Of a stretch of DNA of 64,000 bases, positions 8,030-62,930 are shown in pieces. The notes under the pieces are model-generated. The model worked only from the letters and a program-made list of their open reading frames with translations, did no database searches and was not told where the DNA came from. The position numbers and the translations under genes are program-made. Positions within the stretch are counted from its first letter, which is position 1. Each line of letters begins with the position of its first letter. The DNA is from Lucinisca nassula (lineage: Eukaryota; Mollusca; Bivalvia; Lucinida; Lucinidae), in the NCBI GenBank assembly GCA_963580285.1, contig OY757024.1:118235203-118299202 (forward strand), in the 5' to 3' direction.

Positions 8030-8112
8030 AACAAATTGCACGAGTTTTGGTAAAGATATATGTTCTATAAGAAGGGTTATCCTTTGGAAGCAAGGAATAC
8101 ACCACAGAACTT
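8030..8112 (-). mobile_element. Fragment of the hammerhead-bearing retroelement
   Basis: On the minus strand, GTTCTGTGGTGTATTCC joined to TTGCTTCCAAAGGATAACCC matches the tail-to-head junction of the element at 35.69-35.99 kb. The ribozyme portion is not present here. Confidence 0.55.
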
Positions 8113-15460: not shown

Positions 15461-15840
15461 TGTTTGTTCGTTTGATTTGAGGTTTAACGTCCCGCCAATT
15501 GTTTGTTGGTTTTGGAGTTCAACGGCCCAGTCAACACTATTTAAGGTCATTTTTGAGCCGGTCAGTTTACCTATCCACACTTTTCCTGGGCAGGCTTATA
15601 CGTAAGCGGTTAACCAGTACAGTGCAACATTCTTTCGCCAGAAACTGACAAATGCCCTTCTTGAATCAGCGGAAGGGAGAGAATGACCGTAGAAAAGATT
15701 TCGTGATCAATCTCCATGAAAGAATGTTGCCGACCCCGGCGGGAATCGAACCCGCGTCCTCATGATCACCAGTCAGACGCGCATCCGACTGAGCCACCGA
15801 GGCCGGCTTAACGTCCCGCCAATACTGTAAAGGGCGATAG
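15461..15840 (-). mobile_element. SINE-G tail fragment interrupted by a SINE-T
   Basis: GATTTGAGGTTTAACGTCCC precedes the intruder and the fragment continues after it with AATACTGTAAAG. Only a short piece of the host element remains. Confidence 0.65.
15500..15807 (-). mobile_element. SINE-T, full length, with 16-bp target duplication
   Basis: TTAACGTCCCGCCAAT occurs at 15484-15499 and 15808-15823. On the minus strand the first 75 bases fold as a tRNA: acceptor GCCGGCC/GGTCGGC, D-arm GCTCAGTCGGATGC, anticodon loop CTGGTGA (GGT, Thr-like), B box GGTTCGATTCC. A body and the TTGACTGGGCCG tail follow, showing this is a SINE and not a tRNA gene. Confidence 0.9.
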
Positions 15841-23235: not shown

Positions 23236-23518
23236 TCTGTTTTTTTTTATTGGAGTTTAACGGTCCAGTCAGCACTTTTTTAGGTCATTTGTGAGCCGGT
23301 CAGTTTTTCCTATCCACAATTTCCTGGGCAGGATTAACCAGTACAGTGCACTTTCTTTCGCTAGAAACTCGCAACTGGCGGAAGGGAGAGAATGACCGTA
23401 AAACGATTGCATGATCAATCTCCACGAAAGAATGTTGCCGACCCCGGCAGGTATCGAACCTGTGTCCTCCTGATCACCAGTAAGACGCGCATCCGACTGA
23501 GCTACCGAGGCCGGCACC
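23236..23518 (-). mobile_element. SINE-T with 11-bp target duplication
   Basis: AAGCCCCGATG at 23225-23235 and 23519-23529. The head on the minus strand has loop CTGGTGA. The mirror position near 41125-41150 keeps only the tail, so the right-arm copy was truncated later. Confidence 0.85.
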
Positions 23519-28887: not shown

Positions 28888-30235
28888 CGAGGACTGTAAA
28901 ATTATATGAAAGCAACTAAGCACATAAAAATGATTCCGTGATAGATTTCGATGAAAAATTTATTTTGTCCCCTAAAAGTATTCCCCTTTAACAGATATAC
29001 AAACTTTCAGTCTTCTGATCCAATCATTGAATGCATTTTGGTAGTCTTTTCGAGGTATACTATGAAGGCACTTGAATATTGCAGAACCGAGGTGTTTGCG
29101 CTGTACAAATTTTCGACCAGAAAGGTATTTTTTAGCCGCGGGAACAAAAAAAAGTCACAAGGGGCAAGGTCAGGGGAATACGGGGGGTGAGGGAGTACAA
29201 CAACCTTTTCCTGCTTCAGATAGTCTTGCACAATGAACGCCTTGTGCGATGACGCATTGTCATGTAGCAATCTGACATTGGCCAAACCAGTTGCGGGTCT
29301 TCGTTCTTTGAAATATCTTTGAAAAATCTTCAATTTTCGAAGAACTTTATTCTTGTAAAACTTCGCATTTACAGATTTGCCTTTAGGCACAGCAACCTGA
29401 ATAGTAGGGCCCTGATTTGAAAAGAATATGGCATACATTACCTTCTTGACGCTCATGGTCGCTTTGCAATGCATGGTCTTTTGCAATACTTTGTTGCCCA
29501 TATATTGTTCTGAATCTTTCGTTTTGGCTAAAAAAGTGAACCCATGCCTCGTCACCTGTGACGACATTAGCGAAATACCGTGCATTGTAATTTGGAAGTT
29601 TTTTAAGCAACTTCTTGGCGCACTGAACGCGTGTCTTTTTCTGCTCATCTGTCAACAGATGGGGAATTCATCTAGCACAGATCTTTCTCATTTTCAAATC
29701 CCGTTTCAGAATTGTATGATCTGCTCCTATTGAGATGCCAACCATACTAGCTTTTTGCCTAGTGGTGTATCGTGCATCGGTAGCAACTATTTCTTTCACT
29801 CTAGCAACCATCTTGGCAGATGTTGCTCTTTTCGGCCGACGATCATGTGGTGCATCTTCTGTTGAGCCTAGCCCACAGCTGAATTTCTTACACCAACGAA
29901 AAACTGTCGGAAAAGACATTTCATTATGCCCATAAACCGAACATATTTAATCAAAAATGTCTTTGCACCGTATACCAAGAATACAACGATTCTTAATATA
30001 GGACCGTATTTCAACGGCGTACTCTGACCTTCTTCCAGCCATGTTTTGTATTAGTATTCAAGAGTAGACAGTGTTTATCGAACGATATACATTGCTAAAG
30101 TGGACGGATTTAAACAATTTTGGTATCAATGTATAGGTAAAATGTTTTTCTACGCTGTGATATTTATTTCAAGGTGATTTTCGCATTAGTGCATGAGAAA
30201 ACGTTCTACTTGCATTCATATTTGAACAGTCCTCG
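28888..30235 (-). mobile_element. Mariner (DD34D) element, complete but inactive
   Basis: The 1348-bp element has inverted termini beginning CGAGGACTGT at both ends and is flanked by TA (28886-28887, 30236-30237). It sits inside a CTA array. Unit B at about 34070 shows the exact empty site with a single TA, confirming the boundaries. The transposase remnant fills 28972-30042. Confidence 0.95.
28972..30042 (-). pseudogene. Mariner transposase, disrupted
   Basis: Reading from ATG at 30042-30040 the frame spans 357 codons, a typical mariner length. It has two nonsense codons: TAA at 29947-29949 (codon 32) and TGA at 29668-29670, replacing the Trp of the usual (K/R)WxPHxLT motif. Two compensating frameshifts lie near 29420-29460 and in the A/T run at about 29128-29133. 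The catalytic triad is recognisable: VTGDEAWVHF, then LHDNASSHKA, then YSPDLAPCDFFLFP, with 34 residues between the last two aspartates. The N-terminal part includes a recognisable helix-turn-helix remnant. It cannot make a functional enzyme. Confidence 0.95.
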
Positions 30236-35689: not shown

Positions 35690-35988
35690 GTTTGCTTCCA
35701 AAGGATAACCCTTTTATAGAACGTTTTAGCTTCACTACAGCTGGTGTGTGGGGATGTGTGGCGGCGGTAAAACGTCTCCCTGCCCTACATCATAGTGTAG
35801 ATTATATTCTCTTGTCCTTTGGGATCATTGATTTCATTGTGGAATTTTGAAAATATCTGAGGGTCACTGATGAGGCGTAATTGGCCGAAACAAGCTAGTC
35901 TGTCCCAGAAAATATGAACACTCCATATATTTCAGTTCTGTGGTGTATTCCTTGCTTCCAAAGGATAACCCTTTTATAGAACGTTTTA
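35690..35988 (+). mobile_element. Retrozyme-like insertion, 1.1 units of a 260-bp monomer
   Basis: An exact 36-bp direct repeat (35693-35728 and 35953-35988, starting TGCTTCCAAAGG) ends the insertion on both sides, giving a 260-bp repeating unit and one hammerhead ribozyme. Its first part (CACTACAGCTGGTG .. AACGTCTCCC .. CATAGTGTAG) is shared, in opposite orientation, with the retrozyme at 61363-61872. Unit A carries the uninterrupted target near 31521-31535 (CAAGTATTTTACTACAACTG). Confidence 0.75.
35861..35906 (+). ncRNA. Hammerhead ribozyme, type I, slightly degenerate
   Basis: Stem I 5' strand GGGTCA, core CTGATGA (35867-35873), stem II GGC..GCC (35874-35886), core GAAA (35887-35890), short stem III AC..GT, cleavage-site base C at 35900, stem I 3' strand TGTCCC. 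One mismatch in stem I (T-T) and one lost pair in stem III suggest reduced activity. Confidence 0.75.
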
Positions 35989-37933: not shown

Positions 37934-38247
37934 GCCGGCCTCAGTGGCTCAGTCGGATGCGCGTCTGACTGGTAATCAGGAGGACGCGGGTTCCACTCCC
38001 GCCGAGGTCGGCAACATTCTTTCGTGGAGATTGATCATGAAATCTTTTCTACGGTCATTCTCTCCCTTCCGCTGATTCAAGAAGGGCAGTTGTCAGTTTC
38101 TGGCGAAAGAATGTGCACTGTACTGGTTAACCTCTTATGTATAAGCCTGCCCAGGAAAGTGTTGATAGGTAAACTGACCGGCTCAAAAATGACCTAAATA
38201 GTGTTGACTGGGCCGTTAAACTCCAATACAAACAAACAAACAAACAA
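37934..38247 (+). mobile_element. SINE-T, full length, 14-bp target duplication
   Basis: ACTGGACTTTTACT at 37920-37933 and 38248-38261. The tRNA-like head has loop CTGGTAA and B box GGTTCCACTCC; the tail GGGCCGTTAAACTCCAATAC is followed by five AAAC units. The mirrored left-arm arrays lack it. Confidence 0.9.
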
Positions 38248-45294: not shown

Positions 45295-45597
45295 GGCCGG
45301 CCTCGGTAGCTCAGTCAGATGCGCGTCTGACTGGTGATCAGGAGGACGCGGGTTCGATACCTGTCGGGGTCGGCAACATTCTTTCGTGGGGATAGATCAT
45401 GAAATCTTTTCTACGGCCATTCTCTGCCTTCCGCTGATTCAAGAAGGGCAGTTGTAAGTTTCTAGAATGAGCACTGTACTGGTTAACCGCTTATGTATAA
45501 GCCTGCCCAGGAAAAGTGTTGATAGGTTAACTGACTGGCTCAAAAATGACCTAAATAGTATTGACTGGGCCGTTAAACTCCAATACAAACAAACAAA
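45295..45597 (+). mobile_element. SINE-T, full length, 12-bp target duplication
   Basis: TCATCCAGATCA at 45283-45294 and 45598-45609. Head GGCCGGCCTCGGTAGC with loop CTGGTGA and B box GGTTCGATACC. Confidence 0.9.
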
Positions 45598-60898: not shown

Positions 60899-61070
60899 TC
60901 ACCATATTTGCATTATTTCCTGGCTCCCAGCTTGCACATTGTCAATATTAGAAAAACAGGTAACCAGACCCCCCCCCCTGACCTTGAAAAGTCAGGGGGG
61001 TCTGGTTACCTGTTTTTCCAACACTGATAACATTCAGACCAGGAACCAGCCAATAATGCAAATAAGGTGA
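60899..61070. mobile_element. Hairpin MITE, copy 2
   Basis: Colinear in reverse with 7202-7365, with an expanded C run in the left hairpin arm. Confidence 0.8.
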
Positions 61071-61362: not shown

Positions 61363-61424
61363 CAAATAAAAATAAAAAAATGAGTTCCTTTAAGAGCAAT
61401 GAAAACATTCATAAGAAAGAAGAT

Positions 61425-61470
61425 GGGTCATACTACGTAGTTTCGGCTAATAAAGCCTCATCAGTGACTC
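61425..61470 (-). ncRNA. Hammerhead ribozyme, type I (downstream copy)
   Basis: Minus strand: stem I GTCA/TGAC, CTGATGA (61458-61464), stem II GGCT..AGCC (61445-61457), GAAA (61441-61444), stem III ACT-ACGT-AGT, cleavage after A (61431). All core positions agree with the hammerhead consensus; the very short stem III is characteristic of the retroelement type. Confidence 0.85.
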
Positions 61471-61807
61471 TGTAATGATCCGGCAACGAAAGCCAGAGGA
61501 AGCATACTGCAATTTTGCGAATTTTGAATAGGCAGTCGATTCAAAGACTGATATAAATCAAAATGGGGTCCAAATAATTAAAAACCTGTCTAGAATATGA
61601 GTCTAAACCAATAATTTATTTATGATTTCTCAGAATATTCACGCTGATCTCAAAGGACCAAACGTAATATATAAACTGCACTATGGTTGATGTACGGGGA
61701 GACGTTTAACGGCCGCCACACGGCACAGCACCAGCTGCAGTGAAGGCAAATAAAAATCAAAAATGAGTTCCTTTAAGAGCAATGAAAACATTCATAAGAA
61801 AAAAGAT

Positions 61808-61853
61808 GGGTCATACTACGTAGTTTCGGCTAATAAAGCCTCATCAGTGACCC
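61808..61853 (-). ncRNA. Hammerhead ribozyme, type I (upstream copy)
   Basis: The same core (CTGATGA at 61841-61847, GAAA at 61824-61827), stem II and stem III as the other copy, with a fully paired 6-bp stem I GGGTCA/TGACCC. Cleavage is expected between 61814 and 61813. Confidence 0.88.
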
Positions 61854-61872
61854 TGTAATGATCCGACAACGA

Positions 61873-62025
61873 AAGCCTCCAAAGACTCCTATGTCTGCCA
61901 CCAAATTAGAGAGCATTCACTAGCATATACCCAAGAGGATCGTGACAAGCATTGTATGGCACGTTTTTCCTCCATACACCGATAGGTAACAGTAATCGAA
62001 CAAGCACGATAACACTATCTCTGAT
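61873..62025. other. No recognised feature
   Basis: Short spacer. Confidence 0.3.
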
Positions 62026-62430: not shown

Positions 62431-62930
62431 TAGGCAACAAAGGGAGCGCTCGGCGAGCGGCCGTTGTTGAACGCTGCTCTAAGTAGGCAACAAAGTCAGC
62501 GATCGGCGGGCGGCCGCGTTGTTGAATGCTCATCTGAGTAGGCAACAAAGTGACCGCTCGGTGGGCGGCCGTGTTGTTGAACGCTCCTCTGAGAAGGCAA
62601 CAAAGTGAGCGCTCGGCGGGCGGCCGTGTTGTTGGACGCTCCTCTGAGTAGGCAACAAAGTGAGCGCTCGGCGGGCGGCCGTGTTGTTGAACGCTCCTCT
62701 GAGAAGGCAACAAAGTGAGCGCTCGGCGGGCGGCCGTGTTGTTGGACGCTCCTCTGAGTAGGCAACAAAGTGAGCGCTCGGCGGGCGGCCGTGTTGTTGG
62801 ACGCTCCTCTGAGAATGGAACAAAGTGAGCGCTCGGCGGGCGGCCGTGTTGTTGGACGCTCCTCTGAGTAGGCAACAAAGTGAGCGATCGGCGGGCAGCC
62901 GCGCTTTTAAACGCTCCTCTGGACTTCAAA
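62431..62930. repeat. 55-bp GC-rich minisatellite, about 9 units
   Basis: The unit starts AGGCAACAAAGTGAGCGCTC and contains GGCGGGCGGCCGTGTTGTTG. Units alternate between GAGTA and GAGAA endings, so the recent amplification step involved pairs (110 bp). The outermost units are more diverged. The open frames across it are artefacts. Confidence 0.92.

Follow-up and report, generated by a model that had tools for sequence, protein, structure and literature searches.

From which RNA, and from which point on it, is a non-coding element with two hammerhead ribozymes copied into a genome? The question is raised by a locus near the end of the window, a 64,000-nt stretch of the Lucinisca nassula genome, in which a sequence-only reading had placed a two-ribozyme retrozyme. 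The element, E1, occupies positions 61363-61877 on the minus strand and measures 515 nt, i.e., a 383-nt unit plus a 132-nt overlap, or 1.34 laps. Its direct repeats, 132 nt long and spaced by 383 bp, are 96.2% identical, and the 3.8% difference within this overlap is above the mean of its family (family A). Identical 24-nt hammerhead cores (CTGATGAGGCTTTATTAGCCGAAA) are located in the repeats at 61824-61847 and 61441-61464 on the minus strand, bearing out the claim of two cores 383 bp apart; no core was found in 100 dinucleotide shuffles, even with up to three mismatches allowed. The predicted cuts, between 61814 and 61813 and between 61431 and 61430, delimit a 383-nt unit with a GC content of 38%. 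The longest frame within E1 starting with ATG, GTG or TTG has 36 codons, in agreement with the absence of coding capacity noted earlier.

The upstream ribozyme (61808-61853, minus strand) is a complete type I hammerhead with a stem I of 6 bp, while the downstream one (61425-61470, minus strand) has an A-C mismatch at pair 5 of stem I. Thus, a 6-bp stem I is indeed present in one ribozyme, and perfect only in the upstream one, and the description of both ribozymes as intact holds for that copy but not for the downstream copy. A descriptor for type I hammerheads, requiring the core, 3 bp of stem II, two stem III pairs, an NUH site and at least five of six stem I pairs, matched the window at three places, both E1 hammerheads and position 35867 on the plus strand, compared with 1 match in total in 300 windows simulated from the dinucleotide frequencies of the window. 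The hammerhead fold was predicted at -13.2 kcal/mol for the upstream ribozyme, against a free minimum of -14.0, and at -6.3 against -10.6 for the downstream one; neither free minimum is therefore the hammerhead, with a large gap only downstream. The Rfam search proposed as a check of the element did find both E1 sites, but as matches to RF00008, the type III model, at 31.3 and 25.1 bits (E values of 1.3e-4 and 0.007), below the gathering score of 48.5, at which no hammerhead-like match was returned. RF00163, which we take to be in one clan with RF00008, was absent from the matches at E1, the tool reporting only the best match per clan. Two sister loci of family A (L012 and L048) scored 28 to 31.3 bits. 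A plant-type (type III) hammerhead was considered for E1 and rejected, because loops close stems II and III and stem I is open.

Comparison of E1 with the window revealed two relatives beyond E1 itself, both new finds. The first, E2 (35690-35988, plus strand), is a divergent retrozyme with a 260-nt unit and 1.14 laps, which belongs to family B. Its ends overlap exactly over 37 nt (35692-35728 is identical to 35952-35988); its last 6 nt are unlike the family B reference, to which the BLAST alignment stops at 35982. Its hammerhead (35861-35906, plus strand), with a cut placed by eye on the sequence between 35900 and 35901, is weakened by a U-U mismatch in stem I and an A-A mismatch in stem III. 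With Rfam at an E value of 0.1, no hammerhead match was returned for two family B loci (L013 and L036), nor for L076, a Penelope-like locus described below. The second relative is a 52-nt family B fragment, F3 (8058-8109, minus strand), truncated on its 5' side and with its 3' end at family position (-3). E1 and E2 share a circular order of conserved domain, linker, hammerhead and linker; they are 83% identical over 48 nt in the hammerhead and 74% identical in the domain of about 100 nt (61645-61745 on the minus strand in E1, 35730-35827 on the plus strand in E2), and the remainder aligns weakly. Both elements end directly before the conserved domain, yet they start at different points. E2 is surrounded by (AGT)n and (ACT)n microsatellite tracts, which are numerous between 22441 and 42157.

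E1 belongs to the known metazoan non-LTR retrozymes, as the sequence-only reading had proposed. It is non-coding and low in GC (below 45 to 50%), it carries type I hammerheads with complete cores, the downstream one with the stem I mismatch, and its direct repeats fall in the range of about 150 to 450 bp described for dimers to multimers, with spacings of 383 bp for E1, 260-261 bp for family B and 346 bp for L010. The latter locus represents a third family, C, whose unit is that of family B enlarged by an insert of about 85 nt in the domain. The available text on metazoan non-LTR retrozymes (Cervera and de la Pena 2020, PMC7229834) describes the same combination of a type I hammerhead, non-coding sequence, low GC content and tandem copies, as well as the weak helix III with a palindromic tetraloop found in E1. 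Closest by size are the mussel retrozymes, of 350 to 390 bp (PMC7229834), a range that includes the 383-nt unit. Plant LTR retrozymes, as far as the accessible parts of PMC4918200 and PMC7761336 describe them, also have tandem hammerheads and form circular RNA, as presumed for E1; they differ in that their ribozyme is of type III and in having LTRs of about 350 bp, a PBS, a PPT and 4-bp duplications. Assignment of E1 to Penelope-like elements (PLEs) by a frame coding for a reverse transcriptase and a GIY-YIG domain was rejected, given its longest frame of 36 codons.

Retrozymes are abundant in this host. The hammerhead pattern CTGATGAGGCNNNATTNGCCGAAAC, which leaves stems I and III unchecked, has 24,061 and 23,910 exact copies on the two strands of the 2.93-Gb assembly that holds the window (696 contigs), for a total of 47,971, and its reversed control has 0. 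Words from near the 3' end of the elements occur in 18,835 copies for family A and 16,118 for family B, with 0 for the controls. For comparison, about 5000 hammerheads in a mussel and 126,247 in axolotl were found by other search criteria (PMC7229834, available part). Exact-pattern scans of viral_contigs and genome_contigs for relatives outside the host returned 0 matches. The multicopy, mobile nature of these elements is also apparent from the sampled copies, which are dispersed and have element ends.

To locate these ends, we analyzed two sets of genomic copies. Sample 1 comprised the first 100 listed places of the pattern, all on one contig and covered by 59 stretches, in which BLAST against tandem references delineated 83 segments of at least 40 nt, or 81 after two at stretch ends were dropped; as it was picked by the exact hammerhead core, short copies missing the core are under-represented. 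In this sample 64 of the 81 segments had their 3' end within 3 nt of a single unit position, set as 0, compared with 1.8 expected for a uniform distribution. The site was used in both families (A, 36 of 40 with 0.7 expected; B, 28 of 41 with 1.1 expected), and the counts were unchanged with a rotated reference. The other 17 segments ended off site, three of them flagged with a neighbouring piece. Sample 2 was restricted to family B and comprised 40 of the first 41 B clusters beyond 5.27 Mb, one large cluster being skipped. There, 34 of the 36 segments with a 3' boundary inside the stretch stopped within 3 nt of the site, in a sample picked by a 31-mer ending about 5 nt before the site and thus blind to 3' ends upstream of about -5; 6 of 42 segments extended to the end of the stretch. 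Sample 2 thus shows that copies stop at the site instead of running on. Counted from the ribozyme cut, the fixed 3' end comes 67 nt downstream in family A and 89 nt downstream in family B, and the conserved hairpin described below follows immediately. In E1 it falls at 61363-61364 (minus strand), 67-68 nt downstream of the cut. Genomic copies whose ends fall at one fixed point past the hammerhead are a feature of a PLE-like mode of working, and we infer that this end corresponds to the start of reverse transcription.

The 5' ends behaved differently, being spread all round the unit, and copy lengths ranged from 0.2 to 6.7 units overall and from 0.36 to 6.7 units in sample 1. The two-ribozyme dimer recognised in the sequence-only reading is not itself the element's unit but one of the products of a copying process, which range from 0.2 to 6.7 units and share their 3' end. 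The 5' ends did not pile up within 3 nt of the ribozyme cut, with 0 of 81 in sample 1 (about 1.8 expected, which denotes an absence of pile-up, not avoidance) and 1 of 40 in sample 2 (1.07 expected), arguing that linear, ribozyme-cut RNAs do not usually provide the template end. In family B we recorded a 5' hotspot at positions 52-63 from sample 1, where a 10-nt window reached as high a count in 1 of 2000 simulations. The hotspot, defined before sample 2 was analyzed, was replicated in the latter (10 of 40 against 1.8 expected, p = 1e-5). Family A alone had no significant 5' cluster, with 7 of 40 ends at 52-72 (2.2 expected), and two other family B clusters were inconsistent, at 154-168 in sample 1 only and at 184-186 in sample 2 only (5 of 40). 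The hotspot falls within the hairpin, at the edge of the 3' strand that faces the loop; a polymerase that has gone round would thus halt shortly after entering the hairpin.

The domain that adjoins the fixed 3' end on its 3' side is the only strongly conserved segment outside the ribozyme. We analyzed its hairpin in 38 of 65 full domain copies, one per locus and family, of which 28 were distinct. The outer helix was paired in 96.4% of cells, one of its pairs being broken in 8 of the 28 distinct copies. Two pairs were changed on both sides, the first being A-U in 17 copies, G-C in 8 and G-U in 3, and the second C-G in 27 and U-A in 1. Of 500 shuffles, none attained the covariation score, 12 had at least as many doubly changed pairs and 496 at least as many pair types, in a test in which related sequences can beat shuffles without any structure. 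Folding of single sequences alone was unconvincing (z of -1.2 to -1.5). In the predicted E1 circle the domain stem forms with pair probabilities of 0.81 to 0.93. Stem I of the hammerhead is absent from that fold (probabilities of 0 to 0.03), and the circle is 54% paired, compared with the more than 70% self-pairing described for retrozyme RNAs in the available part of PMC4918200. The domain is a candidate binding site for the reverse transcriptase.

Pairing is also kept through changes in the ribozyme. Among 130 cores in the sampled stretches 83 were intact, a share inflated by the selection of stretches on an exact core. Pair 4 of stem II differs between the families with pairing retained (C-G in 62, T-A in 59). 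In 88 of the 130 cores the stem III 8-mer corresponds to either of two palindromes, and between families the centre of stem III changes on both sides, again with pairing kept; these compensated changes represent few evolutionary events seen in many copies.

We then compared successive laps of the same element. They differed by 1.05% in family A (19 of its 36 elements had two laps) and by 4.2% in family B (18 of 28), compared with 5.3% and 10.9%, respectively, between different elements. Variants common to two laps numbered 124 in family A against 17.5 expected, and 363 in family B against 101 expected. Single-lap variants numbered 99 in A and 565 in B, thus exceeding two-lap variants in the latter. 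Such likeness is expected of laps copied from a single circle, and equally of laps derived from a single homogeneous array.

The fixed 3' end, the variable 5' ends, the variants shared by laps and the pairing kept through changes are accommodated by a single route, and E1 is probably an inserted copy of a non-LTR retrozyme that was reverse-transcribed from a fixed internal start on an RNA that was circular (or multimeric). By this route, transcripts would be cut by the hammerheads into one-unit RNAs and closed into circles; one-unit RNA circles have been shown in other animals (PMC7229834, available text). A reverse transcriptase supplied in trans would bind the conserved hairpin and begin copying at a single internal site immediately 5' of the hairpin, 67-89 nt past the cut. 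It would then go round the circle, often for more than one lap, and stop at variable points, the commonest stop in family B being on re-entering the hairpin. On a linear, cut RNA the start would lie only 67-89 nt from the 5' end, and only a stub could be copied, which would make a circle useful. The available text of PMC7229834 contains an earlier proposal of a circular RNA template, tandem cDNA and PLEs as a strong candidate for mobilisation; in that text there is no discussion of a 3' end fixed away from the cut or of copies of less than one unit, as seen here. Among the titles and beginnings of abstracts that we searched, we found no mapped reverse transcription start site for a retrozyme. 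The fixed end, the adjoining hairpin and the hotspot together define a specific start site, open to testing in other species that carry retrozymes. They make testable a step of the retrozyme cycle that had been accepted without being specified, and suggest a reason for the ribozyme.

The template might instead be a long, uncut transcript of a tandem array, initiated from a promoter near the 5' hotspot, with the start of reverse transcription still fixed and cleavage being a separate fate of the RNA. Tandem copies do exist in the genome, segments that start in the hotspot include some of 1.8 and 2.8 laps (sample 2) and of 3.7 and 6.7 laps (sample 1), and a multimeric linear RNA would leave much the same marks as a circle. 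In addition, a PLE of Anolis copies uncut RNA in vitro, its ribozyme being dispensable for insertion there (PMC11167929, available part). However, 21 of the 35 sample 2 segments with both ends inside their stretch are shorter than one lap, pairing in the ribozyme has been kept through changes, and circles are the main form in mussel tissue as described in the accessible text of PMC7229834. We therefore consider an uncut array transcript unlikely as the template.

A SINE-like origin, in which RNA polymerase III stops at a T-rich stretch of a linear RNA and a LINE copies it by target-primed reverse transcription, could be suggested by the end sequences, as family A stops after TTTTTGATTTTTATTT and family B has CCCTTTT about 14 nt before the end and ATATTTA at the end. 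Most family B copies nevertheless end at AACATATT or AACATATTTA rather than within a run of at least four T, elements of several laps continue past the end point, and inspection by eye for the box consensus recognised neither an A nor a B box, making this origin very improbable. A tandem repeat of the satellite type, multiplied by unequal exchange and carrying the hammerhead as a passenger, would explain tandem runs of up to 6.7 units but hardly dispersed copies with one end fixed and the other variable, many of less than one unit, in unrelated flanks, and we regard it as the least credible origin.

In 59 elements, flank words were shared little more than in shuffled pairs (values as high arose in 15 and in 30 of 300 shuffles), so that target site duplications, which have been reported for some retrozymes, are not clear here; in metazoan retrozymes they are larger than 4 bp when present. 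By eye, three insertions (two of family A and one of family B) in L059 and L064 lie near one place of what seems to be one dispersed repeat, possibly reflecting a target preference.

For the route via a circular or multimeric RNA, the enzyme would have to come from elsewhere, and a PLE is a candidate source. Animal retrozymes are said in a review to lack any conserved motif pointing to their enzyme (PMC7761336, available part). The parallel with PLEs is good. The PLE PAc of Anolis was shown in vitro to begin reverse transcription at an internal site, at 111-118 nt of the ORF, and its ribozyme cuts at position 26 (PMC11167929, available text); by our computation the start lies 85-92 nt downstream of the cut, compared with 67-89 nt here. 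PAc needs RNA 3' of the start, up to +172, and partial tandem copies occur in both systems (same source and extent). The retrozymes differ from PAc by the lack of a long ORF and by a canonical hammerhead (PMC11167929, as available). Animal retrozymes in general might tentatively be viewed as circular-RNA parasites of Penelope-like reverse transcriptases, recruiting these by the hairpin, with a hammerhead that exists for circle closure and hence full copies; we put this forward with less confidence than its opposite.

The host has at least 138 matches to GIY-YIG frames, with 150 of 746 candidates scored. The label PLE rests on these frames of up to 820 codons, some of them in tandem pairs, and on further sequence features; among four PLE-like pieces analyzed with Pfam, GIY-YIG was found in one and a reverse transcriptase model in none. 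No significant similarity was detected between the retrozymes and 12 PLE-like upstream regions (best matches of 16 nt, E value of 0.067). One of these 12 regions, several of which come from one family, contains a minimal hammerhead (L076, 1120-1145). The corresponding 143-nt piece (1101-1243) had 2 matches among the 40 of 2291 DNA-query candidates that were scored. Both are inverted, lie upstream of an ORF match and have the same two ends, the 3' end being 98 nt past the cut, which fits the PLE geometry with n = 2. A third match, at 85%, covers another part of L076.

In the window itself, no PLE was recognised among the 8 open frames scanned. Next to E1 an inverted repeat with a long C/G run was seen by eye at 60951-61020, which may be a foldback or MITE-like element. 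A minisatellite of nine 55-bp units occupies 62431-62921. One of the scanned frames, located in a minisatellite, gave a weak fucosyltransferase match, below the cut-off. Four tRNA-Thr(GGT)-like loci, perhaps SINE heads, are located at 15729-15805, 23437-23513, 37936-38012 and 45298-45374, three of which were also matched by Rfam. A mariner-like transposase remnant is present at 29010-29651 on the minus strand (DDE_3, E value of 3e-6, just below the curated cut-off).
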